Assembly (NCBI GenBank): GCA_013821985.1 | Contig: PNJQ01000023.1 | Coordinates: 1 to 47,805, forward strand | Source of the DNA: Opitutus sp. | GTDB lineage: Bacteria; Verrucomicrobiota; Verrucomicrobiia; Opitutales; Opitutaceae | DNA length: 47,805 nt | Direction: 5' to 3' | Shown here: piece by piece, positions 1-14,421 of the stretch | Layout: every line of letters begins with the position of its first letter | Position numbering within the stretch: position 1 is the stretch's first letter | Translations under genes and position numbers: made by a program | Notes under the pieces: generated by a model | What the model saw: the letters and a program-made list of their open reading frames with translations, nothing else | What the model was told of the DNA's origin: nothing | The model's database searches: none

Positions 1-1115
1 TTGAGACTGTCGTCGGCTCGGTGGCGGAGCAGCGCCAGATCTTCAAGGGTGCCGACCATGCTTTTTTGTGGAAACCCAAGCTGCGCATTCCCAACATTTA
101 CGAGAACCGCGACAACCAGATCGCTTTCGCTCGGTTCCTGGACACCTGCGCCTGCTGCGATTCTGAAGGCGAAGTCCTCGCGGCGATCCGGCTCCTCGAG
201 TCGCGTCAAATCAAGGGCCTCGGTCCGGCGGCGGCGAACCTGTTGTATTTCCTGCATCCGACAATCGTGCCGCCCTTCAACACGGCGATCGTCAACGGCT
301 ACAACGCACTCACGGGTGCGAAAGTGAAATTGGGGAAGTGGGCAGAATACCTCGCGATGCGAGAAGGCATTCTGCGGCTCAACGCGGAGCATCGCTCGCT
401 GTTGTCGAACGATCTGGGCGCAATCGGTGGGTTCCTGTTCGACGTGGGCAGCGAGCGCTACCCCTTGCCTCCTGCGAGTGACGACGCCGCAGCGAGGTCG
501 GCATGGGAAGCGGACCTGGCAAAGGTGCGAGAGGAAAGTGCCAGCGCACAACGGGCCCATCGGCGCAACGCGGAGGAAGAGCAATCGCACACGGAGGTCC
601 AAGGGATGCTTCGTGATTTGGGCCTGGCATTGGGGTTCAACGTATGGATTGCCGCAAACGATGCTGGTCGGATTTTTGCCGGCAACCGGTTGGGCGCAGG
701 CTGCGTGGAAACGCTTCCGCCGGCGTTGACCGGTGCGCCTGCGCTCGACGCGATTCGTCTCATCGACGTGATCTGGCTCCAGCGCGATACCGGGGCCCTG
801 GCGGCTGCGTTCGAGGTGGAGCACACCACGTCGATCTACTCCGGCATTGTTCGCCTGCTCGATTTGGCTGGGAGCGCGCCAGCCGAAGCGGTGCGCGGGC
901 TGTTCCTGGTGGCACCGGATGCACGCGAGGAAGAGGTGCGCGCCCAGCTCTCACAACCGGCCTTTCGGCACATCGGTCATCTGAAGATGCGTTTCCTTCC
1001 CTACGGCGAGTTGACGCGCAACCGTGACCACATCGTGAGATTCGGCGAAGGCCTCCGTGCGATCCACGCCGTCAGCCGCGAGCTGAGCCTTAACGGGGCG
1101 GCGGTTCCGCACTAA
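1..1115 (+). CDS. Restriction-endonuclease-like protein, 5' partial
   Basis: The reading frame is open from base 3, so the gene begins before the window; the first in-window start-like codon is GTG at 21. The visible 370 or so residues have two parts. The N-terminal part contains a helix-hairpin-helix-like stretch (KGLGPAAANLL, then PPFN), a pattern used for DNA contact. The C-terminal half contains a PD-(D/E)XK-like arrangement: an Asp in LIDVIWL, then the strand FEVEHTTSIYSG. A charged helical linker (roughly residues 160-200) joins them. The FEVEHTTSIYSG pattern resembles nuclease-like domains found near restriction and defence genes. It ends 9 bp from a convergent DUF305 gene. Nuclease fold is inferred; substrate and partner are unknown. 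Confidence 0.55.
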   Translation, partial: ETVVGSVAEQRQIFKGADHAFLWKPKLRIPNIYENRDNQIAFARFLDTCACCDSEGEVLAAIRLLESRQIKGLGPAAANLLYFLHPTIVPPFNTAIVNGYNALTGAKVKLGKWAEYLAMREGILRLNAEHRSLLSNDLGAIGGFLFDVGSERYPLPPASDDAAARSAWEADLAKVREESASAQRAHRRNAEEEQSHTEVQGMLRDLGLALGFNVWIAANDAGRIFAGNRLGAGCVETLPPALTGAPALDAIRLIDVIWLQRDTGALAAAFEVEHTTSIYSGIVRLLDLAGSAPAEAVRGLFLVAPDAREEEVRAQLSQPAFRHIGHLKMRFLPYGELTRNRDHIVRFGEGLRAIHAVSRELSLNGAAVPH

Positions 1116-1124
1116 TGTGCAGCG

Positions 1125-1721
1125 TTACTGCTTCAAGCGCTTCAGCTGCTTGATGCCTTCTTGCTGGTGCGTGACGGTTTTCTCCGCGAAGGACTTTACT
1201 TCAGGGGCGCTGGCGCGGCGCTCGGCGAGCTTTGCCATCTCGACCGCCATTTGGTGATGCTGCGTCATCGTTTCGACGAACTGCCGGTCAAATTCCGGTC
1301 CCTGCGCGCGCTCGAGCTTGGTCATCATCTCGTGCTTCATCGCCTGGTGGTCTGATCCTTTGCCGTGGTGGGAAGTATCCGAGTTGGCGGAAAGCGCGCC
1401 CGACTGGGAGTGCGAGGAGGCATGGCCGGAACTGCGACCGCCATGCATTGCTTCCAGCGCTTCAATTTCCTTCTGCTGCTCTTGGATGGTTTTCTGGGCG
1501 AATTGCTTGACCTCCGACCGCTGGGCGCGCTGCACCGCCATTTCGGCCATCATTACTCCCTGTTGATGGTGTTCGATCATGTGGCTAACGAACGTGTGGT
1601 CGAAATCGGGGCCCTTGAGCCCTTCGAGACTTTTCATCATCGAGTCTTTCGCCAGCGCGGGAACGGCAAAGATCGCCGCGGCGGCGATCGCAGCAAGTGC
1701 AACGTGTTTGATGGATTTCAT
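1125..1721 (-). CDS. Secreted tandem DUF305 protein
   Basis: The product is 198 aa with a clear N-terminal signal peptide (basic MKSIKH, Ala-rich core, likely cleavage after PALA). Two DUF305 repeats follow, at about residues 30-95 and 130-195. Each carries the family pattern FDxxFVxxMxxHHQ, then MAxMA, then a second His-bearing helix (repeat 1 has HMIEHHQQG, repeat 2 has TMTQHHQMA). A His/Ser/Gly-rich linker separates them. DUF305 proteins are periplasmic four-helix bundles of the ferritin-like type, often linked with copper or other metal stress. Here the role is inferred to be periplasmic metal binding. Most DUF305 proteins have one repeat, so this looks like an internal duplication. Confidence 0.85.
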   Translation of the reverse strand: MKSIKHVALAAIAAAAIFAVPALAKDSMMKSLEGLKGPDFDHTFVSHMIEHHQQGVMMAEMAVQRAQRSEVKQFAQKTIQEQQKEIEALEAMHGGRSSGHASSHSQSGALSANSDTSHHGKGSDHQAMKHEMMTKLERAQGPEFDRQFVETMTQHHQMAVEMAKLAERRASAPEVKSFAEKTVTHQQEGIKQLKRLKQ

Positions 1722-1786
1722 GGTAATGGAGTTTTTATGCCTGACCTGCTCGAGGGGTTAAGGTTCGTAGACCTGTAGCCTTCTCA

Positions 1787-1807
1787 GTTGCCCACCTGAT
1801 GGGCGAC
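1787..1807. other. Small hairpin between divergent genes
   Basis: GTTGCCCA and TGGGCGAC form an 8-bp stem (one G-T pair) around a 5-base loop, in the 135-bp space between the divergent DUF305 and winged-helix genes. No T-run follows, so it is not an obvious terminator. It could be an operator or an RNA hairpin in a leader. Confidence 0.35.
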
Positions 1808-1856
1808 CCTGGGCAAGCCGGGCGATAACTTTCTACTTGTCAAGGGTGTCGAAGCC

Positions 1857-2408
1857 ATGTTTCAAGGCTTCATGAGTCAAGCCATCCGGAAAATAGATTT
1901 GATCGAGGCGATTAAGCGTAACCGGGAGGAAAAGGATCACCTGAGCAGCCGGTTGGCCGAGCTTGAACGGGAGTGGGATGGATTACAGATGACGCTCGAG
2001 CGGTTCGACAAAATCGCTGCGGCTTGCGGGCGCGGGAACGGCAAACTTGGAGACAATGCCCCGGGTTCTGCCAAGAACAGTGGAAAAAAATCGGTGCAGC
2101 GGGCGCAAACGCGTCCGCCGCCCCCGCAAGGGACCGGAAGTAAAGGAGCACATGGCTCCTCGGCTGGACGGCGGAGGCGTTCCTCGGATGTATCTGTGGC
2201 ACTGCGACGCTTGATTCAGGTGCAGACCGACGAGTTCACGGGCCCTCAAATTGTCGGTCAGCTTGAAAAAACGGATGCCGCTCTCGCTGAAAGGATCCCC
2301 GACGGCTACATGTCGACGTTGCTATGGAGAATGGCCCAAGCGCGGCAAATTTCGTTGGTCCGACGGGGAGCTCCCGGTGAGCCCCACGTTTACTGCACCG
2401 CCAAGTAG
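1857..2408 (+). CDS. Coiled-coil and winged-helix-like protein
   Basis: Not a family I recognise by name. It is 183 aa (179 if the second in-frame ATG at 1872 is used). Residues about 10-60 are a charged heptad-like coiled coil. Residues 65-115 are Gly/Pro/Arg/Lys-rich and look disordered. Residues 118-183 resemble a winged helix: FTGPQIVGQL, then STLLWRMA, then a basic turn before the final HVYC strand. Such C-terminal modules occur in small regulators and host-factor-like proteins. A terminator follows at 2452. Its 3' end points at the tnsAB side of the transposon, the same geometry as a Tn7 target gene relative to the tns operon. It may therefore be the attachment gene (inference). DNA binding is also inferred. 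Confidence 0.55.
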   Translation: MFQGFMSQAIRKIDLIEAIKRNREEKDHLSSRLAELEREWDGLQMTLERFDKIAAACGRGNGKLGDNAPGSAKNSGKKSVQRAQTRPPPPQGTGSKGAHGSSAGRRRRSSDVSVALRRLIQVQTDEFTGPQIVGQLEKTDAALAERIPDGYMSTLLWRMAQARQISLVRRGAPGEPHVYCTAK

Positions 2409-2451
2409 TGATTTTTGCTACCTATCCACCATGAAACCTTCCAAAAAGAAA

Positions 2452-2486
2452 CCCGTCACTTAACTTTCATTAAATGACGGGCTTTT
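2452..2486 (+). terminator. Rho-independent terminator
   Basis: A 12-bp stem (CCCGTCACTTAA with TTAAATGACGGG, one mismatch) closes a 6-base loop and is followed by CTTTT. It lies 43 bp after the stop of the winged-helix gene. An A-rich stretch just upstream (AAAAAGAAA) means it may also stop transcription from the other side. Confidence 0.8.
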
Positions 2487-2707
2487 GATCGCTAACGCGA
2501 TCGGCACAGCCTTTTAGCAGGAGGATGTGCCGTGAGCGTGTGCGCGGCTGAACCAGTGTCAAGCACAGACTTGGCGCGTGGGCGGCGCCGTAGCGATCGA
2601 GGCCAGTCGCATCGCTATGATAAACACCTACGTCCCTGTTCGGTGCCGCAACGCTGCGGCTCGATATTCCGCGGCACGTGCCGCTTTCACTTCTGAGAGG
2701 ATCGGCC
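2487..2707 (+). promoter_or_regulatory. tnsAB leader; probable transposon end with dyads
   Basis: This 221-bp stretch has no gene and several dyads. A hairpin GATCGC-TAAC-GCGATC lies at 2487-2502. CGGCACA at 2502-2508 pairs with TGTGCCG at 2526-2532. GCCGCA-ACGC-TGCGGC is at 2645-2660. A perfect 14-bp palindrome GCGGCACGTGCCGC is at 2671-2684. The hexamer CGGCAC or its complement occurs five times. The heptamer ATCGCTA or its complement occurs three times (near 2488, 2591, 2611). A transposon end with TnsB sites and an operator for the tns operon are expected here in Tn7-like elements. Which repeat does which job is not resolved. Confidence 0.5.
2695..2700 (+). promoter_or_regulatory. Shine-Dalgarno sequence that sets the tnsAB start
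   Basis: GAGAGG lies 7 bases before the GTG at 2708. The other in-frame GTG at 2678 sits inside the 14-bp palindrome and has no such sequence, so 2708 is preferred. Confidence 0.65.
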
Positions 2708-5134
2708 GTGGCCTCACCGTTTAAGTGCATCGTCGGGGAGTGTTCCCTCGCCAATGGCGGGGGCCACTACCGCAGTCAAAATGAGCGCCGTGGCTCGCCC
2801 CACTGGGCGCTCGAGCCCGACGTGCAATCATTCGTCTATCAGCAGCCTGTGGTTCACTATTCTTTTGAAGGACAACCGCGGCGCTACACCGGCGACACGC
2901 TAGTCCACTTCTGGTCGCCGCGGCGGCCTCTAGTAGTCGAATACAAGCTGGCGAGCGCGATTGAGAAAGACCCCTCTCTTAAACCCTATCACGAAAGGAT
3001 TCGGGGGATACTGAAAGGGCGTGGGCTCGATTTCGTTGTTCTGACGGATCTGGATATCATGACCGTCTCGCTAAAGAACAAGGAGTTCTTCCTCCGGTTT
3101 CAGGCAGATCCCGAATCTCCCTTTGAGGGCGAAGTGTTCCGGGCGGTCTCCGCCGCCGGCGCGATCCCGCTGAACGACCTATTGTGTAAGTTGCGGCCGA
3201 CGCCCGATTCACAGCTACAGCTTGTGCCTGTCGTGTGGCGGCTCGTGGCGTGGCGACGCCTGTTTGTGGATTTCAACGTCACCCCGTCTCGCGAGTCCCT
3301 GGTTTCGATAAAACCCCTGACCCCCCCCTTTTCTATGATCGCGCCCCGTAAATTTGAGTTCGGCGGCAAGAATCAAGCCGAGACTGACTTGGAAATCGCG
3401 CAGTTCCGAAAGGACCGGCTGCTGCCCTATGCGCACTGGCGTCTTCGCCGCCCGGACGCTGAGAAGCGCTGCCTTAGTGCAGACATTAACTCCCTCGCGT
3501 CGGAACTCGGCTGCGGTGCCGATTGGATTCGAGTTCGTGTTAGAGAAATGATCGACGCCGGACCGGAGAACGTCGATCTGCAAAAATTTCTCAAGCGTGC
3601 TCCGGATGGAGGTAAGGGCAAATCGAAGCTCCGCGAGGAACTGAGGGAACCGGTGGCCAAGGCGATCGACCACGCGATTTCACGTGGGGCTGAGCCGGGC
3701 TCGAGAGCCGCCAACAGGATAGTCCGTCGTTTTCTTGAGCAGCACGGAATTCCTCGTGCCCGACAGCCCTGCGCCAAGGCGTTGAAGCGCGTCTCAAACG
3801 CTCCGCACATCACGATCAAATTTAACCAAGCCGTGTTCGGGGAGCACATGACGCGTGTTCTCGGGAAATCGGCCGATTCGTTCGCTCCGAACGAAGTCAT
3901 GTTTCTCGATTGGAGCACCTTCAGCTCCGAGGACGACGATCCCACCTTAACCCTTCGCGTCTACGATCGCTATCGCCGGTTCATGGGTGTAGCTAATGCT
4001 TTGTTCGGCGTCTGCGGTGGCACGCGAGGCCTGTGGACGCTGCTTCCGATTGTTGGCGCTCAGAATACCTATTTGACCGCCTGGGGCATTCGGCGGGGCT
4101 TGTTGTCGAAACAGTCGCTCCTCGAGAAATATGGACTCAGCGGAGCGTGGCCGTTTCACGGGACGCCTGGACGGTTTGTTACTGACCGCGGCAGCGAATT
4201 CATCGGGGAGCAGATCGTCCGCACGCTCGAGGAGATGGGCATTCCATATCGCGACCTTTCTCCAGCCGAAATGCCTTACATGCGCGCGAAAAGCGAGCGA
4301 TTCAACCGCACGGCGCACCTCGGCATGGCTGACTTCATGCATTCCGAGATCGGCCAAAAATACTTCTTCCCGGCGCCGGATGTGCGGGGCGCAATGGGTA
4401 TTCTGTTCGAGCACCTTGACCGCGCATTCCTAGAGTGGGCGATCGTCGCGTATCACCCCAAGGGAAACAAAGGGCTTGGCGGTGCCTCTCCGCTCGAACG
4501 CTACTCTGACATGGTGCATGGGCACCGCGGGTTTCCTCTCTCGGGGCCGGTTATTGCTCGGCCTGAAAGTGCTACGCCCATGTGGAATTTCCTTTGGGAA
4601 GAAAAGCGTATCATCAACCACACCGGTATCAGTATCGCGAACCGAAACTATGCCTGCGATGAGTTGACGAGATTCTTGCAGCCCGGAACGCGATCCTCTG
4701 GCAGGCGCCAATCCGTCCGCTTCAACCCCTACGCGCTCGGCCGTGTGCTGGTGCGAGATCCGGATACAGCGGAGGTGCTTCCCGTCCCTTATCGACACCG
4801 CAACGATATTCTTCCGCTCACCGCAGCACAGATTGAGGAGACGAAGAACCCATCGATTTGGGAGTGGAACGTTGCCTACAGGGATTTGAAGCGCGTGGGC
4901 AACCCGCGCCCTGAACCCGAACAAGTTTTCGAGGTGATCTCAAAACGCGAAGCTCTGATCAAGGACCCCGAAACGGTGATTTCGGCGACGGTCACGCGGC
5001 GCGACGTGGCGAACTTCGAGATGCGCCAGACGTTCGCGCAAGACGGGCTCGCGCAGTTGCCTAATCCAACCCCCCATCCCCCGCGGCCGTCGGCTATGCT
5101 TCCAACCGGGCGTGGCGGAGCTGACGAATACTGA
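2708..5134 (+). CDS. tnsAB: TnsA-TnsB fusion transposase
   Basis: This single 808-aa protein should cut both strands at the transposon ends. Residues 20-100 form a TnsA-like nuclease: QQP at 45-47, D63 in YTGDTL, and E78-Y79-K80, spaced as the Asp and Lys of Tn7 TnsA. The usual first catalytic Glu is unclear; E26 or E36 are candidates. Residues 100-190 match the TnsA C-terminal domain (VVWRLVAWRRLFVDF). After a helical DNA-binding region, the TnsB DDE core has D401 (FLDWS), D493 (TDRGSEF) and E530 (KSERFN). The final 200 residues form the barrel and tail that in TnsB contact TnsC. Fusions of this kind are known in some Tn7-like and type I-B2 CRISPR-associated transposons. tnsC begins 9 bp downstream. 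Confidence 0.92.
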   Translation: MASPFKCIVGECSLANGGGHYRSQNERRGSPHWALEPDVQSFVYQQPVVHYSFEGQPRRYTGDTLVHFWSPRRPLVVEYKLASAIEKDPSLKPYHERIRGILKGRGLDFVVLTDLDIMTVSLKNKEFFLRFQADPESPFEGEVFRAVSAAGAIPLNDLLCKLRPTPDSQLQLVPVVWRLVAWRRLFVDFNVTPSRESLVSIKPLTPPFSMIAPRKFEFGGKNQAETDLEIAQFRKDRLLPYAHWRLRRPDAEKRCLSADINSLASELGCGADWIRVRVREMIDAGPENVDLQKFLKRAPDGGKGKSKLREELREPVAKAIDHAISRGAEPGSRAANRIVRRFLEQHGIPRARQPCAKALKRVSNAPHITIKFNQAVFGEHMTRVLGKSADSFAPNEVMFLDWSTFSSEDDDPTLTLRVYDRYRRFMGVANALFGVCGGTRGLWTLLPIVGAQNTYLTAWGIRRGLLSKQSLLEKYGLSGAWPFHGTPGRFVTDRGSEFIGEQIVRTLEEMGIPYRDLSPAEMPYMRAKSERFNRTAHLGMADFMHSEIGQKYFFPAPDVRGAMGILFEHLDRAFLEWAIVAYHPKGNKGLGGASPLERYSDMVHGHRGFPLSGPVIARPESATPMWNFLWEEKRIINHTGISIANRNYACDELTRFLQPGTRSSGRRQSVRFNPYALGRVLVRDPDTAEVLPVPYRHRNDILPLTAAQIEETKNPSIWEWNVAYRDLKRVGNPRPEPEQVFEVISKREALIKDPETVISATVTRRDVANFEMRQTFAQDGLAQLPNPTPHPPRPSAMLPTGRGGADEY

Positions 5135-5143
5135 CCCCCTGCC

Positions 5144-6040
5144 ATGAATACTCCGAACGAATTCCAGCTACATGAGTCCGCTCAGCAGCTCCTCGACAAA
5201 GATCTTTCTGCTAAACTCGACTGGGTTTACCGAGACAAATTCGTCGTTCACGCGCTCGTGAAAGACCCCCTGTCGACGCTGAAAGAGTCTCTCCAGCGGC
5301 CCCGAGTAGAACGGCCGGTGTGCTGGCTCATCATCGGTCCGGTAAACTCTGGAAAATCTGCTCTGGTTCACCGCCTGCAGCGCGACCTCGGCGGCGATGC
5401 CGAAAAGAAGGTCGGGGCGACGAATGAATTTCCGTTGTTGGTGATCGAGGTCCCAAGTCGCCCCACAGAGCCGCGGCTAAACCTCGCAATTGCGCGGGCA
5501 TTGCGGATGCCCGTGGCGAGCGAGCATGAGTCTCGAAAGATCAGTGACACGATCCTTCGCAATCTCATCCAGCGAAAGGTGCGGATGGTCGTGTTCGTCG
5601 AAATGGATCACTTCGACCCGCTGCCGGAGGATGAGCAGACCGTGGTTTTCGATTTCATCAAGAACATCACAAATGAAGGGATTGTGGTGGTGGGCGTCGG
5701 CACTGAGAATTGCCGCGAGTCGATCGAAAAGCACGAGGCGCTGGCGTCTCGCTTCCGGCTCAAGTTTCTCACCGGCTTCGCGCAGGGTGCGGAGTTTGGC
5801 GACTTCCTGACAACGCTTGAATCATTCTATCCGTTGCCCGCGCGGAGCTTTCTCGATAGCGAACCTCTCCGGACCACTATCTTCAAACGGACGAACGGCG
5901 TCGTTGGAGAAGTGACGCTGCTCCTGAACGAAGCCGCGGCGTGGGCTCTCCGACAAGGCCGACCCTGCATCGATGATACTGCGCTCAAGAGCTGCGCATA
6001 TACAGAATCACTACTTCGGAGCGAAAAACGAAAATCATGA
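5144..6040 (+). CDS. tnsC: TnsC/TniB-type AAA+ transposition regulator
   Basis: The 298-aa protein is an AAA+ ATPase that links target selection to the transposase. Walker A is GPVNSGKS (residues 65-72). The Walker B strand is VVFVEMDH (149-156): the catalytic Glu is present, but the position normally held by Asp (hhDE) is Val. Sensor 1 follows in VVVGVGTEN. It is about half the size of Tn7 TnsC and matches TniB and the small TnsC proteins of CRISPR-associated elements, so it lacks the long extensions Tn7 TnsC uses to bind TnsA and TnsB. Its start has no Shine-Dalgarno sequence. The stop overlaps the next start as ATGA, indicating translational coupling to tniQ1. Confidence 0.9.
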   Translation: MNTPNEFQLHESAQQLLDKDLSAKLDWVYRDKFVVHALVKDPLSTLKESLQRPRVERPVCWLIIGPVNSGKSALVHRLQRDLGGDAEKKVGATNEFPLLVIEVPSRPTEPRLNLAIARALRMPVASEHESRKISDTILRNLIQRKVRMVVFVEMDHFDPLPEDEQTVVFDFIKNITNEGIVVVGVGTENCRESIEKHEALASRFRLKFLTGFAQGAEFGDFLTTLESFYPLPARSFLDSEPLRTTIFKRTNGVVGEVTLLLNEAAAWALRQGRPCIDDTALKSCAYTESLLRSEKRKS

Positions 6041-6969
6041 GGAGAAAAACCGCTGCACGACGGGTCGATCCGCTGCCCGAAGAAACGCTCATGTCCTACT
6101 TATATCGGGTATCCGAAGACTGGTGCTTGGCATGGACTGATTTTCAGCGCGAAGTCTTGGGCACGACTTTTGTGTCGGCGCGGAGCGGTGAACGTCGCCC
6201 GCTCGATTTCCAGCGTCTTGCGGAGGTCCTGGCTGTAGCGCCCGAAGTGCTGTTTTCGATGTCGGAGCGATCGTTTTACCTCCAGCTGACCGACACTGAG
6301 AGATTGTCGCGACGGAGAATCGCGATCGCCCCTTGGGCCGTAACTCCGGGTTATCCGGTGTATTCGCCTGCAGCACTTCACCGCAGCCCGCATATCCGCC
6401 TCGGCTGGCTTCGCCCCGACGCACTCGTCGACCCAACCAGCGAGACGCTTTTCCTGCGGCACTGCTTTGATTGCGGTGTCGAGCTGGCGACCGTCAACTG
6501 GAGCCACGCCCTAACGCTCTGTCCGGAGTGCTTGGCTCCGCTTGCCGCCGGCCCTCAGGTCAAAGCGCCTGCGAGCCTCGCCAAATTCACCTCATCTTTC
6601 GCCGCGAAGATCCAACATCAGTATCGTTGGAAGCCCGTGAATTTCTTCTCCGATACCATGGTTCGCGCGGCTGCCGTGTGGCACGTGGCCTCACTATTCG
6701 ATACTCGGCCGGACCTCGGCGCGTTCGTAGCCAAAGTGGCTGAGGAATCTGGCTTCGGCCCCATCCCGGCGCGTTCGGAGGAGACCGCCGACGCCGCAGC
6801 GGCTGCGGCTTTGAGATACGCCCTCCTTTTTGCTGCCGCTGACTTTGCGTGCGACAATTATCCGGAGATCTCGCTGAGATTCGAGCGGCTGGCGCATTAC
6901 CCCAACAATTTGCATCGTGCGCCGAGCGCGATCGAAAAGGGCATTGCGGACGCGATGCTCAAAATCTGA
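6037..6969 (+). CDS. tniQ: TniQ-family target-selection protein 1
   Basis: The 310-aa product starts with the TniQ signature (PLPEETLMSYLYR, residues 12-24), the N-terminal helical domain that contacts DNA or partner proteins. A zinc site follows: C143-x2-C146 and C162-x2-C165, separated by 15 residues. The C-terminal third is Ala-rich and helical. TniQ/TnsD proteins choose the insertion site, either by reading a specific sequence or by joining a Cascade complex. No Cascade is present, so direct DNA recognition is inferred. It is coupled to tnsC by an ATGA overlap and lies 4 bp before the second tniQ gene. Confidence 0.85.
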   Translation: MRRKTAARRVDPLPEETLMSYLYRVSEDWCLAWTDFQREVLGTTFVSARSGERRPLDFQRLAEVLAVAPEVLFSMSERSFYLQLTDTERLSRRRIAIAPWAVTPGYPVYSPAALHRSPHIRLGWLRPDALVDPTSETLFLRHCFDCGVELATVNWSHALTLCPECLAPLAAGPQVKAPASLAKFTSSFAAKIQHQYRWKPVNFFSDTMVRAAAVWHVASLFDTRPDLGAFVAKVAEESGFGPIPARSEETADAAAAAALRYALLFAAADFACDNYPEISLRFERLAHYPNNLHRAPSAIEKGIADAMLKI

Positions 6970-6973
6970 ATGG

Positions 6974-7828
6974 ATGAGAGTCTGCGTCCAATCACCCACC
7001 GGCGTTGTTTGGCGTGAGGCGTCCCGAGCCGGGCTGCTGCTTGACGAATACGTTCGTTACGTCCTCCGCGCAGACTGGAACAAAGCTCATCAGAACCTCG
7101 ACGATGTTATCACGGGAAACAGTATTTTTTACGAGGGAAATGAGCAGCTCATCCGGGCGGTCAATACTTACCGGGGAACGCCACGGGAGTGGCTTCGGAA
7201 CACGTGGGACCGAGGCCGTAACGCCCACGTAGCTCCGGTGTATTTCTGTCCCGATTGTCTTCGGACCGGAGAAGGTGAATTAGACCTTCGCTGGCAACTT
7301 GGCTTCAGCTGCGTCTGTCTCAGACACGAACGGTTGCTCTTGAATGCATGCCCTTTTTGCGGAGAGCTACAACGCTACCGCAAAGGATCAGGCGCCGGCG
7401 TTCACTGGCTCGATTCGTGGCGATTTTGCAGCTCATGCGGGACTGAAATCGAGTTGGCCCCGTATGCCCCGGCTTGGTTGCGTGAGACTGGGGAAATGCT
7501 CGGCGGGGCGTTAGGACGAGATAACCTGGCGCAAGCGGCCTGTCACCGATTTCTGACCTTGTTGCACGCGGCTCCAAGAGCCGTTGCTGCCTTTGCCGAG
7601 CTCACGGAGGTGCCTGCATGGTCTGACCCAAAATCCTGGTGCGCATGCGCGCTCCTTTGGGCAACGATCGGTTCTGGTGCGGAGCGTGGCCATCATCAAC
7701 AATCGCTAAATCGATTCGCGTTGGTCGGCGTTGATGCGGAAGATAACTTGGGACCGAGGTTGGCGGAAATTGTGCGGAATGGGGTAGGCTGGCGGCCTAG
7801 GCCGAGGACGGTGCCAGCCACAGTGTGA
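6974..7828 (+). CDS. TniQ-family protein 2 (zinc-ribbon type)
   Basis: The 284-aa protein has the zinc pattern of TniQ/TnsD: C92-x2-C95 (FCPDCL), C115-x2-H118 (CLRH), C126-x2-C129 (CPFC) and C152-x2-C155 (CSSC), with the RWQLGF stretch between. The N-terminal P-x-ESLxS-type motif of TniQ is missing; an unrelated helical segment of about 85 residues precedes the zinc domain. The ATG at 6974 is chosen because it follows the tniQ1 stop by 4 bp; the frame stays open upstream to 6917, inside tniQ1. Two TniQ proteins in one element usually mean two targeting routes, or a split recognition complex (inference). A fragment of a longer TnsD is also possible. Confidence 0.8.
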   Translation: MRVCVQSPTGVVWREASRAGLLLDEYVRYVLRADWNKAHQNLDDVITGNSIFYEGNEQLIRAVNTYRGTPREWLRNTWDRGRNAHVAPVYFCPDCLRTGEGELDLRWQLGFSCVCLRHERLLLNACPFCGELQRYRKGSGAGVHWLDSWRFCSSCGTEIELAPYAPAWLRETGEMLGGALGRDNLAQAACHRFLTLLHAAPRAVAAFAELTEVPAWSDPKSWCACALLWATIGSGAERGHHQQSLNRFALVGVDAEDNLGPRLAEIVRNGVGWRPRPRTVPATV

Positions 7829-7900
7829 GCGCGCGGACTCCGCTGATCGGAACCACCGCCATGGGTCGTCTTTTGACGGCCGCCTAATGATTGCTGGAGA

Positions 7901-8515
7901 TCACGGTTCTCGAGGACGCCATTCGGTCGCATGAAGGAGGGAGATTTTCGACGGATCCACCACGATTTCCTTCTCTTTGCGGTGAGCGAGATACGCGATC
8001 ACGTCCGCTTTTGAGCAGGTCGCCTTTGCCAAGACCGGCCACTGGCCCGCCTGACCGGGACACAGAATTCGACGGCGCGGTCCGCAGCTATAGGCGGCAA
8101 AAAACTTGGCTCGCTCGTAACTAAGCGTCCAAGACAGCCCGAAAACTCCGTCAACGTGGCCACAGCCGCGATAGATCGTAAGCACCTCGGGAAGGCGTTT
8201 CAGGAACCGACGCTCGCTACAAATCATGAAAGCCTCCCGTTCGGGTTGGGCGGCCTGCAGGAGATCCAACCACGCCTGCTTTTGGGGCAACGTCACTTCG
8301 GCGCTAATCCAGACATCGCGCAGTAGAGTCCAGTAGCGTCGCGCGCTGAGGCGCGGAAGGATGCCCAAGAATGCATCGAGGCGCACATGGGAATCGAAGG
8401 TCATCAGGTATTCCTCGAAGCACCCGAGTTGCAGCATTTCTTCACGTGCCTGATCGAGCTGCTTGGAAACGTTCGGGCAGATGGGCGTAGTGATGTAGTC
8501 CAGTTGAGGTGTCAT
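7901..8515 (-). CDS. ADP-ribosyltransferase-fold cargo protein
   Basis: The protein is about 204 aa. The C-terminal 90 residues show the R-S-E layout of the ADP-ribosyltransferase fold. Counting from the GTG at 8518, R117 lies in IYRG, S129 in GLSWT followed by ERAKFFA, and E182/E184 in KEKEIVVDP. The N-terminal 110 residues are helical. I recall similar small proteins in prophages and plasmids with the order YRG, GLSWT, AxxFA, K-x-D-V-x-A-Y, E-x-E-I-V-V. It faces the tns operon convergently with 72 bp between stops. AGGAGG ends 2 bases before the ATG at 8515; the GTG at 8518 overlaps it, so 8515 is preferred. Toxin, phage-defence or host-modification roles are possible. No antitoxin gene is visible. 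Activity is inferred. Confidence 0.6.
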   Translation of the reverse strand: MTPQLDYITTPICPNVSKQLDQAREEMLQLGCFEEYLMTFDSHVRLDAFLGILPRLSARRYWTLLRDVWISAEVTLPQKQAWLDLLQAAQPEREAFMICSERRFLKRLPEVLTIYRGCGHVDGVFGLSWTLSYERAKFFAAYSCGPRRRILCPGQAGQWPVLAKATCSKADVIAYLAHRKEKEIVVDPSKISLLHATEWRPREP

Positions 8516-9001
8516 CACCTCCTACTAACACTATCAGCCCTGCTCTTTTTTTGTGGCTGGAAATGCTGCTGAAATGCGGGCGCTGACACACCGACGGTGA
8601 TTGATGCCGAAAACGTCCCAGCGGCCGTGTCCGGCACGGCAAAGATTCGGCGTTGGGCCTTTACCGGTGGATTATGCTTCGCCGGTCTCGCACATTCGTC
8701 GGGCCGAATCGAAAGGGTGGGTCGGTATCGAAGGATGTCGAAAGCCGTAGCATTTCTACAGCTCCCGCAGGATCAGTGTAAGACGACGTGCTCCGCCAGA
8801 AGTTAGTATTGCGTGTGGGTTGTCCGCGATTTCCTACGCAATCCACTGTGTCACCCGAAATTAAGTCTGCATGCACGGCAGACGAGTGCGGGTGAGTTGG
8901 TCTACTTCGGGGTGGGCTGGTGCTTCCTACATCGGAAGGTCTGGTTGTCAGGAGTTTGTGAATAAGAATCTGCAATCCTGGCCGGGTTTTTACTTGAGTC
9001 T
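8516..9001. other. Long non-coding stretch before mraZ
   Basis: About 490 bp with no convincing gene on either strand. Contents: the AGGAGG site of the cargo gene; two direct GCTG(G)AAATGC copies (8556-8566, 8568-8577) next to TGACA at 8584; a hairpin GCCGTG-TCCGG-CACGGC at 8624-8640; three copies of RTCGAARG near 8708, 8727 and 8737; an inverted pair ATTGCGT/ACGCAAT about 20 bases apart starting near 8808; and a CTTCC-TACATC-GGAAG hairpin near 8924. The left part probably holds the far transposon end. The right part should hold the mraZ promoter, but I see no clear -35/-10 pair. No tRNA, SRP RNA or tmRNA signature was seen. Confidence 0.5.
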
Positions 9002-9037
9002 TGGGAGTAAAATGGGGACAAATGGGGCGTTCTGGGG
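9002..9037 (+). promoter_or_regulatory. Four phased TGGG boxes, probable MraZ operator
   Basis: TGGG occurs at 9002, 9013, 9023 and 9033, with spacings of 11, 10 and 10 bp (the last three read TGGGG). MraZ proteins bind direct TGGGN repeats separated by about 5 bases upstream of their own gene. The array ends 36 bp before the mraZ ATG, so autoregulation of the dcw cluster is strongly suggested. Confidence 0.75.
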
Positions 9038-9073
9038 CAGATCGCATTTCGAGCCCAAGGACGAACCCCTTCC

Positions 9074-9526
9074 ATGGCGCAGTCTGGCACAACCGTTTAT
9101 TCCGGCCGTTTTGAGCACACGCTCGACGACAAGAATCGTCTCACGATTCCGTCGCTCTGGCGTTGGGTGCACTCGGACACGGAGACGTTTTTAGCCATGC
9201 CGCACCCGGATGGTTACATCGCGGTGCTGCCGCCGGCGCGCGTGGAGAAACTGCTCGCGCAGATCGGCGAGATGAAACTTTCCGACCGCGATGCGCAGGC
9301 GGTGAAGGCGCGCATCTTCTCGAGCGCGCTGCAGTTCACGTTCGACAAGCAGGGCCGCTTCGGCGCGAACGCCGATCTGCTCGCTCACGCCGGGATCGCG
9401 AAGGACGCGGTGCTCGTGGGCATGGGTGACACTTTCAACATCATGAGCCCGACGCGCTGGCAGGATATGCAGCGCGCCACGGCAGGAGAAAACTTCGGCG
9501 ACATGATGCGCCGGATTGGCCTTTGA
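9074..9526 (+). CDS. mraZ: Transcriptional regulator MraZ
   Basis: The 150-aa protein has the two AbrB-like swapped-hairpin domains of MraZ: the first with [18 protein letters not shown] (residues 9-26), the second with [11 protein letters not shown] (86-96). MraZ is a nucleoid-associated regulator that forms a ring and binds repeats upstream of its own operon. It is the first gene of the dcw cluster, as in most bacteria, and has four matching boxes upstream. The start (TTCCATG) lacks a Shine-Dalgarno sequence, like many genes in this window. Length and motifs fit the family. Confidence 0.95.
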
Positions 9527-9544
9527 GCCACGAACCCCACGACC

Positions 9545-9673
9545 ATGCGCATTACTCCGATCCGTTCCCAGCCGTTGCAGAAATTGTCCATGGTCGCGTG
9601 CGCGCAGCGCCGCAACTTGCGGGGCGTCGTTCCCACTCGCCGCAAGAAAGCCCATGTCCGCCGCAGCGCTTGA
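9545..9673 (+). CDS. Possible 42-aa basic small protein
   Basis: A short frame fills the mraZ-rsmH gap: it starts 18 bp after the mraZ stop and overlaps the first 20 bp of rsmH in another frame. The product has 11 Arg/Lys in its last 21 residues (for example [10 protein letters not shown]). By my count 32 of 41 codons after the start end in G or C, similar to true genes here. It has no Shine-Dalgarno sequence. It could be a coupling peptide, a small nucleic-acid-binding protein, or chance in GC-rich DNA. Confidence 0.3.
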
Positions 9674-10604
9674 GATTCTTCCGGCAAAAATGACAGGCGG
9701 TCACCAGCCGGTTCTCCTGCACGAGGTCCTTGAATACCTCGCGCCCGAGAGCGGCCGGACCTACCTCGATTGCACGTTCGGCGGCGGTGGCCACACGCGC
9801 GAGATTTTGTGCAGTGGCGCTTCCGTCGTCGCGCTCGATCGCGACCCGGCGGCCCAAACCCGGGCTGCGCCGGTGCAGGCGCAGTTCCCGGGAACCTTTA
9901 AGTTCGTCGATTTGAACTTCGGCGATCTCGCCGCGCTGCCGGACGCCGGCTTCGCGGGCATCCTGTTCGATCTCGGCGTGTCGTCGTTCCAACTCGACGA
10001 AGCGGAGCGCGGCTTCGCGTTCCGCAGCGACGCCCCCGCCGACATGCGCATGAATCCGCGTGAAGGCCAGCCGGCCGCGCGCTGGCTCGAGATCGCGCCG
10101 CACGACGCACTCGTCCGCGCCATCCGCGATTACGGCGAGGAACAGAACTGGCGCCGCGTCATCACCGCGATCGAGGCCGCGCGCGGCACCGGCCGGCTCG
10201 CGCGCACGTCGTCGCTCGCCGAAGTCATCTCCGACGCGATCCCCAACGCCGTGAAGCGCGAGAGCAAGATTCACCCGGCCACGCGCAGCTTCCAAGGCAT
10301 CCGCATCGCCGTGAACGACGAACTCGGCGCCATCGAGCGCGCGCTGCCGGCGGCGTTCGAGCGTCTCGCCTCGGGCGGCGTGCTCGCGGTCATCAGCTTT
10401 CATTCGCTCGAAGACCGGCCCGTGAAGCAGTTCTTCCGCCGCGTGTGCGGCCTGCCGGTCGATCAGAACGACTCCACGCCGCAGCAGCTCCGGGCGAAGC
10501 ACGCCGAGTTGCTTACGCGCAAGCCGGTCATTCCGTCCGCCGCCGAAATTTCCACCAATCCCCGCAGCCGCTCCGCCAAGCTGCGCGTCCTTCGCAAGCT
10601 CTGA
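9654..10604 (+). CDS. rsmH: 16S rRNA m4C1402 methyltransferase RsmH
   Basis: The 316-aa enzyme methylates N4 of C1402 in 16S rRNA using S-adenosylmethionine. The AdoMet-binding loop is [11 protein letters not shown], the next motif is [14 protein letters not shown] with ERGFAF, and the C-terminal signature is [12 protein letters not shown]. The start at 9654 is chosen because the family begins about 10 residues before the [12 protein letters not shown] stretch; the open frame back to 9516 has no family match. Second gene of the dcw cluster. The start context is GCCCATG with no Shine-Dalgarno sequence. Confidence 0.95.
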
Positions 10605-10615
10605 CACGCACCCCG

Positions 10616-11026
10616 ATGAAACCCCCTCCGCCCAACGCGCTGGTCAACAAACTCGTCGCGCTCTCGCTCGTCCTCCTGATGTTCGCCGGAACCCTCGGCC
10701 TCGGCGCCGTGTGGGTGCGCCAGGAAATTTTCGCCACCGCCAACCGCAGTCGCGTCGTCGAGGCTCAGCTCGGCGATGTCGAGCGCAAGCTCGACGAGTT
10801 GCGCGCGCAGGTCGCCACCGCGGAAAGCGTCGCGACGCTCTTGCAGCAAAACGACGCGATGCACCTCGCGCTGGTTTCGCCGCGCGAGATTCAAGTCGCG
10901 CGTGTCGCGCAGGACCCGATGGTCGAGCTGAGCCGCAAGCGCGCCGCCGAGGCAATGTTCGGTCGTGCCACCGGCACGGACGCCTTCCCGCAATTCCGCA
11001 TCATCGCCGCTTCCTACAACCCCTGA
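10616..11026 (+). CDS. ftsL: FtsL-like division protein
   Basis: The 136-aa protein has a short basic, Pro-rich N-terminus, one membrane segment (about residues 14-33, LVALSLVLLMF onward) and a coiled coil (about 36-75). This is the FtsL/DivIC layout; the protein acts in the inner membrane as part of the FtsQLB complex. Sequence identity in this family is always low, so the call rests on topology and on position between rsmH and ftsI, where ftsL always sits. The 60-residue tail after the coiled coil is longer than in E. coli FtsL. It lies 3 bp before ftsI. Confidence 0.75.
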   Translation: MKPPPPNALVNKLVALSLVLLMFAGTLGLGAVWVRQEIFATANRSRVVEAQLGDVERKLDELRAQVATAESVATLLQQNDAMHLALVSPREIQVARVAQDPMVELSRKRAAEAMFGRATGTDAFPQFRIIAASYNP

Positions 11027-11029
11027 GCG

Positions 11030-12832
11030 ATGTCGAAGGGCTTTGCCTCCAACTTCCGAATGGCCCTCCTCGCGTCGGCCGTGCTCGCGTGCTTCAGCGC
11101 CGTTTGCGTGCGGCTCGTGTATTTGCACGTGCTCGACCGCGAAGAGCTGTTGAAGTTTGTGGATAAGGCGCGGCGCCAGATCGTCGTCGAGCACGCGCGC
11201 CGCGGGGCGCTCCTCGACGCGAAGGGCAATGTGCTCGCGACGTCGCGTTCCTACGTCGTGCTCGGGGCCGATCCGGAAATGTTGCGCGACACCGACAGCG
11301 CGAAGTGGGGCAAACTCGCGCAGCTGCTCAACATTCCCTATCTTGAGCTCGACCGCACGCTGCGCCGCAGCATCGCCGCCGCACAACTCGCGCTTGCGGG
11401 CACCGACCCGGCGCTGAAGGAAAAACGCGTTCGTTACGTGAAGCTCGCCGACGAAGTCGATGAGCGCGTCTATGACCAGATCACCGCGCTCGGCATCAAG
11501 GGCGTTTACGGCTCGCGCGGCTACAAGCGCGTCTATCCCGGTGGTCAGCTCGCGGCGCATGTCCTCGGCTACATCAACAAGGAAAACACGTCCGTCAGTG
11601 GCGCCGAGAAGCACCTCGATCTCTATTTGAAGGGGCAGGACGGCTGGATCGAATCCGAGAAGGACGGCGCTCGCCGCGAACTGGCGCAGTTCCGCACGCG
11701 CGAAGTCGATCCGATCGACGGCCACGACGTCGTGCTGACGATCGACGCCGTCATCCAAAACATTATTGAGCGCGAACTCGAGGGCATCGCCGCCAAATAC
11801 AACCCGAAATTCGCGACGATCATCGTGAGCGATCCGCGCACCGGCGCGATCCTCGGCATGGCTAACTACCCGACGTTCGACCCCAACAATTTCGCCAAAG
11901 CCCCGCTCGATCATCAGCGCAACTACGCGGTCACGGACATCATCGAGCCGGGTTCCACCTTCAAAATTGTCGCCGCCGGCGGTTCGCTGAATGACGGCGT
12001 CGTCAACCCGTTCACCACCTTCGATTGCGACTTTCCGACCGTCCTGGTGAACGGCAAGGAGCGCAAGCTGCCCAAGGAAGATCACTCGATGGGCACGCTT
12101 ACGGTCGAGCAGATCGTCAGCCACTCGAGCAATCGGGGCGCCGCGCACCTCGCGATGAAACTCGGCGACCGCCGCTTCTACGAATACGCGCGCGCCTTCG
12201 GTTTTGGCGAGACGACGAAATGGCCGCTCGGCGCCGAGGTGCGTGGCATTCTCGATGATCCGAAGCGTTGGGACGGGCTGACCATCACGCGCATGCCAAT
12301 GGGTCACGCGGTGGCGGCGACGCCGTTGCAGATTCACATGGCGATGAGCGCCGTCGCCAATGGCGGCGCGTTGCTTCGTCCGCAAATCATCCGCGAGATT
12401 CGCGATCCCGAGGGCAACATCGTCCGCCGCTTCGAAACCGAGAAGCGCGCGCAGGCCCTCAAGCCCAGCGTCGCGGCCGAACTCGCGCAGATGCTCCACG
12501 GTGTCGTGCAAAAGGGCGGCACCGGCGACGGTTTCGACATCGAGGGCTTCGAGATCGCAGGCAAGACGGGCACGACGCAAAAAATCATCGACGGTCGTTA
12601 CGTGACTAACCGCCACGTCGCGTCCTTCGTCGGCTTCTTTCCCGCCAGCCGCCCCGAGGTTGTCCTCTCCGTCATCGTCGATGATGCCAAGGTCCCGGGC
12701 GGTCTCGCCTACGGTCGCGCCGTCGCGGCGCCGGCCTTCAAGCACGTCGCGGAACAACTGATCCAATATATGGACATCAAGCCCGTGCGTTCGTCGCGCG
12801 GCCTGCTTGCCCTGACGGGAGGTCCGCGATGA
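11030..12832 (+). CDS. ftsI: Septal transpeptidase FtsI (PBP3)
   Basis: The 600-aa class B penicillin-binding protein crosslinks septal peptidoglycan. One N-terminal membrane anchor (about residues 10-30) precedes a dimerisation domain (GALLDAKGNVLA) and the transpeptidase domain. The active-site motifs are S309-x2-K312 in EPGSTFK, S366-S367-N368 in SHSSN, and K512-T-G-T515. Because it lies beside ftsL, it is FtsI rather than the elongation enzyme PBP2. The stop overlaps the nominal ATG of murE as ATGA, so translation may be coupled. Confidence 0.95.
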   Translation: MSKGFASNFRMALLASAVLACFSAVCVRLVYLHVLDREELLKFVDKARRQIVVEHARRGALLDAKGNVLATSRSYVVLGADPEMLRDTDSAKWGKLAQLLNIPYLELDRTLRRSIAAAQLALAGTDPALKEKRVRYVKLADEVDERVYDQITALGIKGVYGSRGYKRVYPGGQLAAHVLGYINKENTSVSGAEKHLDLYLKGQDGWIESEKDGARRELAQFRTREVDPIDGHDVVLTIDAVIQNIIERELEGIAAKYNPKFATIIVSDPRTGAILGMANYPTFDPNNFAKAPLDHQRNYAVTDIIEPGSTFKIVAAGGSLNDGVVNPFTTFDCDFPTVLVNGKERKLPKEDHSMGTLTVEQIVSHSSNRGAAHLAMKLGDRRFYEYARAFGFGETTKWPLGAEVRGILDDPKRWDGLTITRMPMGHAVAATPLQIHMAMSAVANGGALLRPQIIREIRDPEGNIVRRFETEKRAQALKPSVAAELAQMLHGVVQKGGTGDGFDIEGFEIAGKTGTTQKIIDGRYVTNRHVASFVGFFPASRPEVVLSVIVDDAKVPGGLAYGRAVAAPAFKHVAEQLIQYMDIKPVRSSRGLLALTGGPR

Positions 12833-14421
12833 TCGGCTATCTCACTCCCAATTATCCGCTCGTCGCCGCGTTCCGCTCGCTGCCCGCGACCCGCCGCCGT
12901 CCGGCCGACCGCGTCTCCCAACAAATTTTCAAAATGGCCCCGAAGCTTTCGGACTTCCTCAACGACGAGGAGATCGTGGCGAGCAAGGGCGACCTCGACC
13001 GTCCGATCTCCGGCTTGGCGATCGACAGCCGCCGCGTGATGCACGGCAACGTCTTCTTTGCCCTTCCGGGCCGCCGGGCGGACGGCAATCTCTTCATCGA
13101 CGAGGCGATCAACCGCGGTGCCATTGCCGTGGTCGCCGAGCGCATCCCGGCGGTGACGTCGGCGCGCGTCACTTACGTGCAGGTCAAGGATGCCCGCCGC
13201 GCACTCGCGCGCGTCGCGCAGCGCTACTACAAGTTTCCGGACAAGTCGCTCGACGTCGTCGGCATCACCGGCACCAATGGCAAGACCACCGTTGCCGCGT
13301 TGACGAAGCATCTGCTGACCGACAGCCAGCAACGCGTCGGCCTCATCGGCACGATCAACTATGATCTCGGCGCGCGCATCGTGCCGTCGTATCGCACGAC
13401 ACCCGAGGCGCTGGAGCTTTTCGGCATGCTGGCGCAAATCCGCGATGCCGGCTGCCGCCAGGCGGTGATGGAAGTGAGTTCGCACGGCATCGAGCAACAC
13501 CGCCTGCTCGGCCTGCAGTTCGCCGTCGGCGTGTTCACCAACCTCACGCAGGACCACCTCGATTTTCACGGCTCGCTCGAAGCCTACTTCGAAGTGAAGG
13601 CCCGCCTGTTCAACGGCGGCATCGGCTCTGCCCCACGCGCCGCCGCGATCAACCTCGACGATCCGTTCGGCCGGCGCCTCGTCGCCGAAGCCCCGGCACC
13701 GCTCAAGGTGGTCACGTTCGGCGAAGCGGCTGACGCGATGATTCGCGCCGAGAACGTGCATCTGGATTTCAAGAGCACGTCGCTGACGCTCGTCTGGCCG
13801 GAAGGTCGCGTCGAACTGGAGAGCCCGCTCATCGGACGCTACAATCTCAGCAACCTCCTCGCGGCGTTCGCCGCGTGCTACGCGCTCGGTCGCGACCCGC
13901 AGGTGATTGCGATGCGGCTCAAGACATTCACGGGCGTCGCTGGCCGCATGGAGCGCGTCGAGGAAGGCCAGCCCTACAACGTGCTCGTTGATTATGCGCA
14001 CACCGACGACGCGCTGCGCAACGCGCTCGGCATGCTCCGGGCCATCACGCCCGGCCGGCTCCTCGTGGTGTTCGGCTGCGGCGGCAACCGCGACCGCAAC
14101 AAGCGCGCGCTCATGACCGCCGCCGTGCAGGAATTCGCCGATCACGCGTGGGCGACCGCCGACAACCCGCGCAGCGAAAAGGTCGCGCAGATTTTTGCCG
14201 ACATGAAGCCCGGCCTCACCGATGCGACCAAGGTCGCCTTCGTCGAGGACCGCCGTCGCGCGATCAGCCTCGCGCTCGACGCCGCGGGCGCCGGGGACTG
14301 CGTGTTGATCGCCGGCAAGGGCCACGAGACTTACCAGGAATTCGCGGACACCATCGTGCCCTTCGACGACCGCCAAGTCGTGCGCGAATTGATCGGTCTG
14401 AAGCGCATCAAGCCGGTCTGA
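12829..14421 (+). CDS. murE: UDP-MurNAc-tripeptide synthetase MurE (mDAP type)
   Basis: The cytoplasmic ligase adds the third residue to the peptidoglycan stem. Motifs: GITGTNGKTT P-loop, VMEVSSHG, the carbamylated-Lys region YFEVKARLF, and ATADNPRSE. The DNPR motif is diagnostic of meso-diaminopimelate addition, indicating Gram-negative-type wall chemistry. The frame gives 530 aa from the ATG overlapping ftsI, but the family starts near MAPKLSDFL at 12934 (495 aa, the usual length). Either the first 35 residues are an extension or 12934 is the true start; I lean to 12934. Confidence 0.93.
   Translation: MIGYLTPNYPLVAAFRSLPATRRRPADRVSQQIFKMAPKLSDFLNDEEIVASKGDLDRPISGLAIDSRRVMHGNVFFALPGRRADGNLFIDEAINRGAIAVVAERIPAVTSARVTYVQVKDARRALARVAQRYYKFPDKSLDVVGITGTNGKTTVAALTKHLLTDSQQRVGLIGTINYDLGARIVPSYRTTPEALELFGMLAQIRDAGCRQAVMEVSSHGIEQHRLLGLQFAVGVFTNLTQDHLDFHGSLEAYFEVKARLFNGGIGSAPRAAAINLDDPFGRRLVAEAPAPLKVVTFGEAADAMIRAENVHLDFKSTSLTLVWPEGRVELESPLIGRYNLSNLLAAFAACYALGRDPQVIAMRLKTFTGVAGRMERVEEGQPYNVLVDYAHTDDALRNALGMLRAITPGRLLVVFGCGGNRDRNKRALMTAAVQEFADHAWATADNPRSEKVAQIFADMKPGLTDATKVAFVEDRRRAISLALDAAGAGDCVLIAGKGHETYQEFADTIVPFDDRQVVRELIGLKRIKPV

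Follow-up and report, generated by a model that had tools for sequence, protein, structure and literature searches.

Attachment sites reported for Tn7-like transposons include glmS, tRNA genes, parE, guaC, yciA, ffs and rsmJ (PMC11406308). In the Tn7 of Escherichia coli, TnsD binds the end of glmS and the insertion takes place just downstream of that gene (PMC2918618). Tn7-like transposons with dual TniQ/TnsD proteins have been described at 998 loci, where one of the proteins usually exceeds 400 amino acids (aa) and a small TniQ is read as the sign of an extra selector; in Tn6022, comM is targeted by TnsF, a protein of 498 aa (Faure et al. 2023, PMC10293859). The transposons associated with CRISPR (clustered regularly interspaced short palindromic repeats), or CASTs, of types I-B2 and I-D have a natural TnsAB fusion, cas genes and a tRNA-targeting TnsD (PMC11406308). 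Within Verrucomicrobia, Tn7-like elements have already been reported in five host species (PMC8649781). The element described here, a Tn7-like transposon of an Opitutus sp. (Verrucomicrobiota, Opitutaceae), lies directly upstream of mraZ in the window, by which we mean the whole stretch of 47,805 nucleotides that was analysed.

The window is contig C23 of an assembly of 117 contigs (79% complete), taken from its first base; DNA to the left of position 1 is invisible. The gene beside the element, mraZ, is the first of the dcw (cell-division) cluster and is nearly universal in bacteria. The element is Tn7-like and we found no CRISPR parts in it. We give a probability of about 75% to the reading that its family has a fixed landing site here, with one or both of two small TniQ proteins as the selector. 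The excerpts of open-licence literature that we consulted gave no report of mraZ (or mraW) as a Tn7-like attachment site.

The locus resembles the dual TniQ/TnsD transposons in having TnsA, TnsB, TnsC and more than one gene of the TniQ family. It differs from them in size, because one protein usually exceeds 400 aa there and both have about 280-334 aa here, in the two copies that we located. A plasmid element of Acinetobacter baumannii (L097), which we take to be Tn6022-like, shares with it separate TnsA and TnsB, a short TniB-type TnsC and a TniQ, but its TnsC falls elsewhere in the tree; Tn6022 has TnsF next to TniQ, whereas the window has a second TniQ after TniQ1, and the longest open reading frame (ORF) between TniQ2 and mraZ has only 205 aa. 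The element of the Delftia plasmid pUO1 (L098), presumably of the Tn5053/Tn402 type, also has a TniB-type TnsC and a TniQ, but it carries a recombinase gene and no annotated TnsA, whereas the window has TnsA and no resolvase that we could see. Two TniQ-family proteins and the activities of TnsA and TnsB are common to our element and the type I-B2/I-D CASTs, whose fusion, cas genes and tRNA-targeting TnsD were not seen here as family traits. Site-specific insertion beside a conserved gene, the likely lifestyle here, recalls Tn7 of E. coli. However, Tn7 inserts downstream of glmS and the window element sits on the upstream, promoter side of mraZ; its TnsC is also short, and no TnsE-like ORF was recognised.

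The same core operon beside mraZ in two genera

The initial annotation of the window had proposed a four-gene operon, and the ORF list and Pfam show it to be real: TnsA and TnsB parts in one frame, a 298-aa TniB-type TnsC and two small TniQs, followed by one minus-strand ORF. The operon has the components of a Tn7-like core. The TnsB-type DDE transposase has a Mu C-terminal domain (tnsB-like gene, 3335..5134, plus strand, 599 aa from MIAPRKF, the start used by its relatives), and the TnsC/TniB AAA+ regulator is encoded in the operon (tnsC, 5144..6040, plus strand, Pfam TniB 1.7e-29). The TniQ/TnsD family of target selectors is represented by tniQ1 (6037..6969, plus strand, 310 aa, Pfam TniQ 4.2e-7) and tniQ2 (6917..7828, plus strand, listed with 303 aa, or about 284 aa if translation begins at the ATG at 6974, Pfam TniQ 1.3e-5). 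The TnsA nuclease, found in the cut-and-paste groups, corresponds to a PD-ExK nuclease part (2708..3334, plus strand) in the upstream portion of the open frame 2678-5134. TniQ1 scores above the Pfam cut-off. The score of TniQ2 (26.3 bits) is just under the cut-off of 27, and its counterpart in the relative described below reaches 5.2e-17. Structure predictions for the TniQs were of low quality (mean predicted local distance difference test scores of 34 and 41). The host gene adjoining the insertion, mraZ, occupies 9074..9526 on the plus strand (Pfam).

We used the 818-aa protein of the open frame, which occurs once in its own assembly, to search 252 genomes of the host family. This gave one strong relative (E 1.1e-108), in genome G234 of a second genus. 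The G234 contig (L007) breaks within TnsA and continues with TnsB, TnsC, TniQ1, a helix-turn-helix gene, a gene with weak likeness to an outer-membrane barrel, and TniQ2; next come an M78 protein of the IrrE type, two unknown proteins, mraZ and mraW. Core-gene order and orientation relative to mraZ are those of the window. The two copies are divergent: identity is 41% over 58 aa for the TnsA fragment, 36-38% for TnsB, 42% for TnsC, 30% for TniQ1 and 31% for TniQ2, and 91 of 150 residues are identical in MraZ. When seven window proteins were compared with the frames of L007 (blastp), the two elements shared only TnsA, TnsB, TnsC and both TniQs, which makes one or both TniQs natural candidates for the selector. 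The initial annotation had expected protein-guided homing and, as a test, had asked for the same gene order at another site in a further genome. The core operon did turn up in a second genus, but at the same site, which fits homing and supports it as likely.

A profile built from 38 TnsC rows (E<=1e-20) retrieved three of the 252 family genomes: the window and G234, both beside mraZ, and G008, elsewhere. The G008 element (L008, G008:C2:206000-222000) belongs to the window's genus and is more distant, with separate TnsA, TnsB and TnsC; by eye, no TniQ was recognised among the printed frames of that stretch, and an SMC-like ATPase and a methyltransferase are its neighbours. Scans of genome-contig and viral-contig collections gave no further relatives. 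There was no new close copy in a sample of 387 genomes of the phylum searched with one TnsB, nor in samples of 372 genomes of the order and 387 of the phylum searched with the TnsC profile.

A likely mraZ-side end and a putative attachment region

A terminus 5'-TGTAGGAAG reads inward from 8931, with predicted TnsB sites at +14 (8906-8918) and +34 (8886-8898), which delimits a putative mraZ-side end at 8886..8931 on the minus strand. The layout, a terminal TGTA with 13-base-pair (bp) sites at +14 and +34, fits the window, G234, G233 (of the genus of G234) and G005 (of the window's genus). Because it is common to these other genomes, we regard 8931 as the likely mraZ-side end of the window element. 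The strict layout had five matches in 46 sequences (349,030 bases, both strands), a number that is illustrative because the pattern was designed after seeing the matches it counts; shuffled controls gave a mean of 0.27 and a maximum of 2 (60 shuffles). Four of the five lie upstream of mraZ in one orientation, in the window, G234, G233 and G005, and the fifth, which adjoins the 3' end of mraZ in L039, is probably due to chance. Ten versions of the pattern with altered spacers gave three matches in all. A triple of sites in the window (8715/8890/8910), with G234-like spacing, was found in none of 200 shuffles.

The sites are clearest in the second genus. G234 has four copies of GTCGGYATGACTT between cargo and mraZ, spaced 50/186/20 and found nowhere else in that genome, and its repeat pairs exceed those of all 300 shuffles. 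G233 has four sites with the same 50/186/20 spacing, their letters concertedly different (mostly GTCGTTATGRCTT), and two further weak matches far off in the same stretch. There (L093, G233:C2, reverse-complement 9105-12980), the end array stands beside mraZ together with a cargo pair homologous to that of G234 (54%, 64%), and an IS21-type IstA/IstB-like gene pair, named by eye, occupies the expected position of the tns operon; this locus is a decayed copy. In G241, of the same genus, one site and the terminus remain at mraZ and no tns genes were recognised. Within the window's genus, G005 (L045/L016) has four sites within three mismatches beside mraZ (L045 about 10370-10754). The frames printed from the 4.5 kilobases upstream of its mraZ include no recognisable tns gene, and the genome had no match to the TnsAB protein or the TnsC profile. 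A solo end, a decayed element and an element moved in trans are candidate readings of this array. Across 39 mraZ loci (of the 46, 7 had no recognisable mraZ motif and were left out), the expected orientation had 15 sites within three mismatches of the G234 consensus; the opposite strand had 2 and a reversed control also had 2.

Between the end and the mraZ start lies a putative attachment region of 142 bp (8932..9073, plus strand); the corresponding gaps at the five loci with a terminus are 142, 140, 134, 124 and 116 bp. The region holds a TTTGTGAATAAG-type motif, which the printed genus-mates also have upstream of mraZ, and GGGG repeats that we take to be typical of MraZ boxes. In an empty-site comparison made in its genus, the window shares DNA with 17 mraZ loci only from about 8943 onwards. 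No clean empty site was found, as genus-mate L041, compared with the others, is also unshared upstream of that point. In L041-L050 and L083-L095, which represent two genera, DNA is shared only from roughly 100-130 bp before mraZ, from a TGTGAATAAG-type motif onwards, and the gene neighbours further upstream differ.

The ends first given to the element, 2557 and 8588, found no support, as the flanking five bases differ (ACCAG before 2557, CACCG after 8588). A simple-repeat search for ends gave nothing reliable, and none of the six ACA in 8519-8975 can be matched to a TGT in 2409-2708 by a 5-bp duplication. A single TCGGATGT at 2184, considered as an end, is inside an intact ORF and is probably a chance match.

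TnsA and TnsB in one frame

The open frame 2678-5134 encodes TnsA-like and TnsB-like parts (Mu-transpos_C 2e-6, Pfam), and a solved artificial fusion, PseTnsAB, matches it at residues 48-171 (E 8e-4). Residues E46, D73, E88 and K90 (numbered on the 818-aa protein) are invariant in the three TnsA rows aligned and presumably form the PD-ExK catalytic site. Likewise, D192, D284 and E321 are invariant in the four TnsB rows aligned, and we take them to be the DDE triad. The two parts are read in one frame across a junction at 3318..3352 (plus strand) that contains a C8T4 tract.

The relatives that we found have two genes. Among the 7997 candidates sharing most words with the 818-aa protein, which were scored, there are two TnsB relatives besides the window protein (599 and 600 aa, 85% and 76-77% identity); both start with MIAPRKF, a point that lies within the long frame of the window. 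The TnsA part, used alone as the query, gave two separate TnsA genes, P0005 (224 aa, 79%) and P0006 (213 aa, 73%), of which P0006 is above the cut-off of PF08722 (TnsA) and P0005 below it. Their tails end with KPLTPPFYDR.., and the window keeps this tail (FYDRAP, then a stop) in another frame, just past the C8T4 tract. In G234, the TnsA frame stops before the TnsB start. Since the relatives are split and the old tail is out of frame at the tract, these reading frames indicate that the fusion is peculiar to the window sequence and would stem from a recent local frameshift or an assembly error. It is probably incidental, and the proposal that a TnsAB fusion characterises the family was not borne out.

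A TnsC clade without the Walker-B aspartate

The TnsC search scored the 8000 candidates sharing most words and retrieved at least 42 proteins, including those of the window and G234; one of the relatives carries the name of an Opitutaceae metagenome-assembled genome, which agrees indirectly with the phylum Verrucomicrobiota. We aligned 37 of these proteins with the window's, leaving out P0008 (the window protein itself), P0010, P0019, P0047 and P0048. The Walker-B aspartate is absent from all 38 rows, replaced by I, M, L, V, S or N, and the glutamate after it is invariant (V152 and E153 in the window). The aspartate is kept in 6/6 TniB references outside the family and in VchTnsC and ShTnsC; PseTnsC has an asparagine.

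The initial annotation had suggested placing the element among Tn7-like families by trees. Our TnsC tree has 47 rows: the 38 of the family, G008, G035, three stretches of CAST TnsC (the I-B2 and I-D types being absent from it) and four plasmid TniB proteins, of which one is from Nitrosophilus, one from Azospirillum and two are presumably Tn6022-like and Tn5053-like. The family rows group in a single clade (94/98) that excludes the nine other TnsC/TniB proteins and splits into a window group of 9 rows and a G234 group of 29. This clade joins the V-K protein weakly (89/46); the outer joins are unsure and their branches long. Against solved chains, the TnsC profile scored about equally with I-F3 (59.8 bits) and V-K (58.8 bits). 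In the Nitrosophilus labii plasmid pHRV44 (L096), a single TniB and a single TniQ are preceded by two TnsA-TnsB-type gene pairs in tandem.

CRISPR parts, cargo and neighbouring genes

The expectation that the element lacks Cas genes and arrays was upheld as far as our scans reached. Pfam, applied to 10 proteins of 21-10601, and PADLOC, applied to 7 of these, gave no Cas effector. The window has no repeat array in a k-mer scan and no Rfam match at gathering score. PADLOC assigned CAST-type TnsC and TniQ models, with weak matches for V-K TnsC (3.3e-8) and TniQ, and its Csx3 match of TnsC is at noise level (E 0.014). Nothing in L007 was cas-like among 7 Pfam-scanned proteins or among the frames from tns to mraZ read by eye.

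The putative cargo is an ORF of 205 aa (7901..8518, minus strand) matching phrog_4776 (3e-33), a phage protein family of unknown function; by eye, its motifs resemble an ADP-ribosyltransferase fold. At the contig edge (21-1115), the window encodes a type II restriction-enzyme-like protein (PADLOC REase_II 2.7e-12). This stretch has a 79% DNA match in contig C13 of G002, a genome whose mraZ is on contig C17 instead.

Probable homing and the alternatives

Under homing, TniQ1 and/or TniQ2 would bind a conserved sequence in the control region of mraZ or at its start, and TnsC would bridge to TnsA and TnsB bound at the repeated end sites. TnsA with TnsB, which would normally act as two proteins, would then move the element by cut-and-paste to a position upstream of the promoter, without disrupting the cell-division operon. 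The small TniQs would bind DNA on their own or with the help of an unseen factor, for which MraZ is a speculative candidate.

Besides the after-the-fact design of the end pattern, several points weigh against this reading. We could place no more than two elements with core genes on contigs. The window locus gave no site in the three-mismatch scan, its sites being too divergent: they match those of G234 at 7-8 of 13 bases only. Taken alone, the window repeats are not above the shuffles, of which 55/300 had as many pairs. The distances to mraZ differ by up to 26 bp. Tn7-like transposons have a terminal 5'-TGT, arrays of TnsB sites on both sides and a 5-bp target duplication. Neither the tnsA-side end nor a target duplication was found in the window, where nothing is visible left of the contig start. 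The main counter-example to homing, though a distant one, is a TnsA fragment of G250 (34% over 116 aa) at a contig end and not beside the mraZ of that genome; the 2.4 kilobases between that mraZ and the contig end have no tns-like frame recognised by eye and no site.

The same placement could result from a single ancient insertion upstream of mraZ, inherited vertically without homing and lost or degraded in most lineages. Such a history would suit the low number of located elements, the occurrence of G233, G241 and G234 in one genus and the cargo pair that G233 shares with G234 at the same place. We nevertheless consider it unlikely. The gene mraZ is present in 13/13 genomes of each genus, with clear traces of the element there only in the window and G005 in one genus and in three genomes (G234, G233, G241) in the other; a close TnsC or an end array at mraZ is lacking in 11/13 and 10/13 genomes, respectively. 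G002, G012 and G230 each show a single weak site, about the control level, and in the trace-free G012 and G231 the upstream DNA covers no more than 160 and 130 bases. Between G234 and G233 the letters of the repeats differ in concert, which is what separate elements, each served by its own TnsB, would show, and left flanks differ in the loci compared. The DNA upstream of mraZ is unshared in these loci, yet the ends are found in one orientation and at a narrow distance; therefore, we infer that repeated homing explains the placement better than one old insertion. The copies located at mraZ (two with core genes, two end arrays and one single-site remnant) would then be independent.

Two further alternatives concern the operon itself. 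The TnsAB fusion might be genuine and functional, a recent natural event like the sporadic ones in other Tn7-like groups: as assembled, the frame crosses the junction without a stop, the relatives' TnsB start codon is in frame, and natural fusions occur in I-B2, I-D and sporadic I-F3 elements (PMC11406308). We find this possible but doubtful, given the MIAPRKF start of both TnsB relatives, the separate genes of both TnsA relatives, the split in G234 and the homopolymer tract at the junction, where the old tail has fallen out of frame. Much less probable still is that the element is a CRISPR-free sister of the type I-B2/I-D CASTs, representing the stock from which they arose. A short TnsC and two TniQ-family proteins would fit such an origin. 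However, the fusion on which kinship to I-B2 CASTs had been based is confined to the window frame and is not a family trait, neither cas genes nor a CRISPR array were found inside the element, and the TnsC profile does not separate I-F3 from V-K.

Implications for Tn7-like target selection

In summary, these results point to a lineage of Tn7-like elements that has two small TniQs and a likely attachment site at mraZ, and in which we found no CRISPR parts. A broader proposal, which we advance tentatively and hold to be less probable than not, is that this separate lineage uses the upstream control region of the dcw operon as a safe harbour. The region would be read by the pair of small TniQs without a large TnsD, a Cas complex or a known partner, possibly through MraZ boxes or bound MraZ, and transposition would rely on a TnsC without the Walker-B aspartate. 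If true, this would add a near-universal bacterial attachment site, approached from the promoter side, unlike attTn7, and would show that small TniQs need neither a long TnsD nor an added selector in order to home. It would bear on the evolution of target selection and on new tools for protein-guided insertion, and the TnsC clade without the Walker-B aspartate would offer a natural test of the need for ATP hydrolysis in the Tn7 switch.

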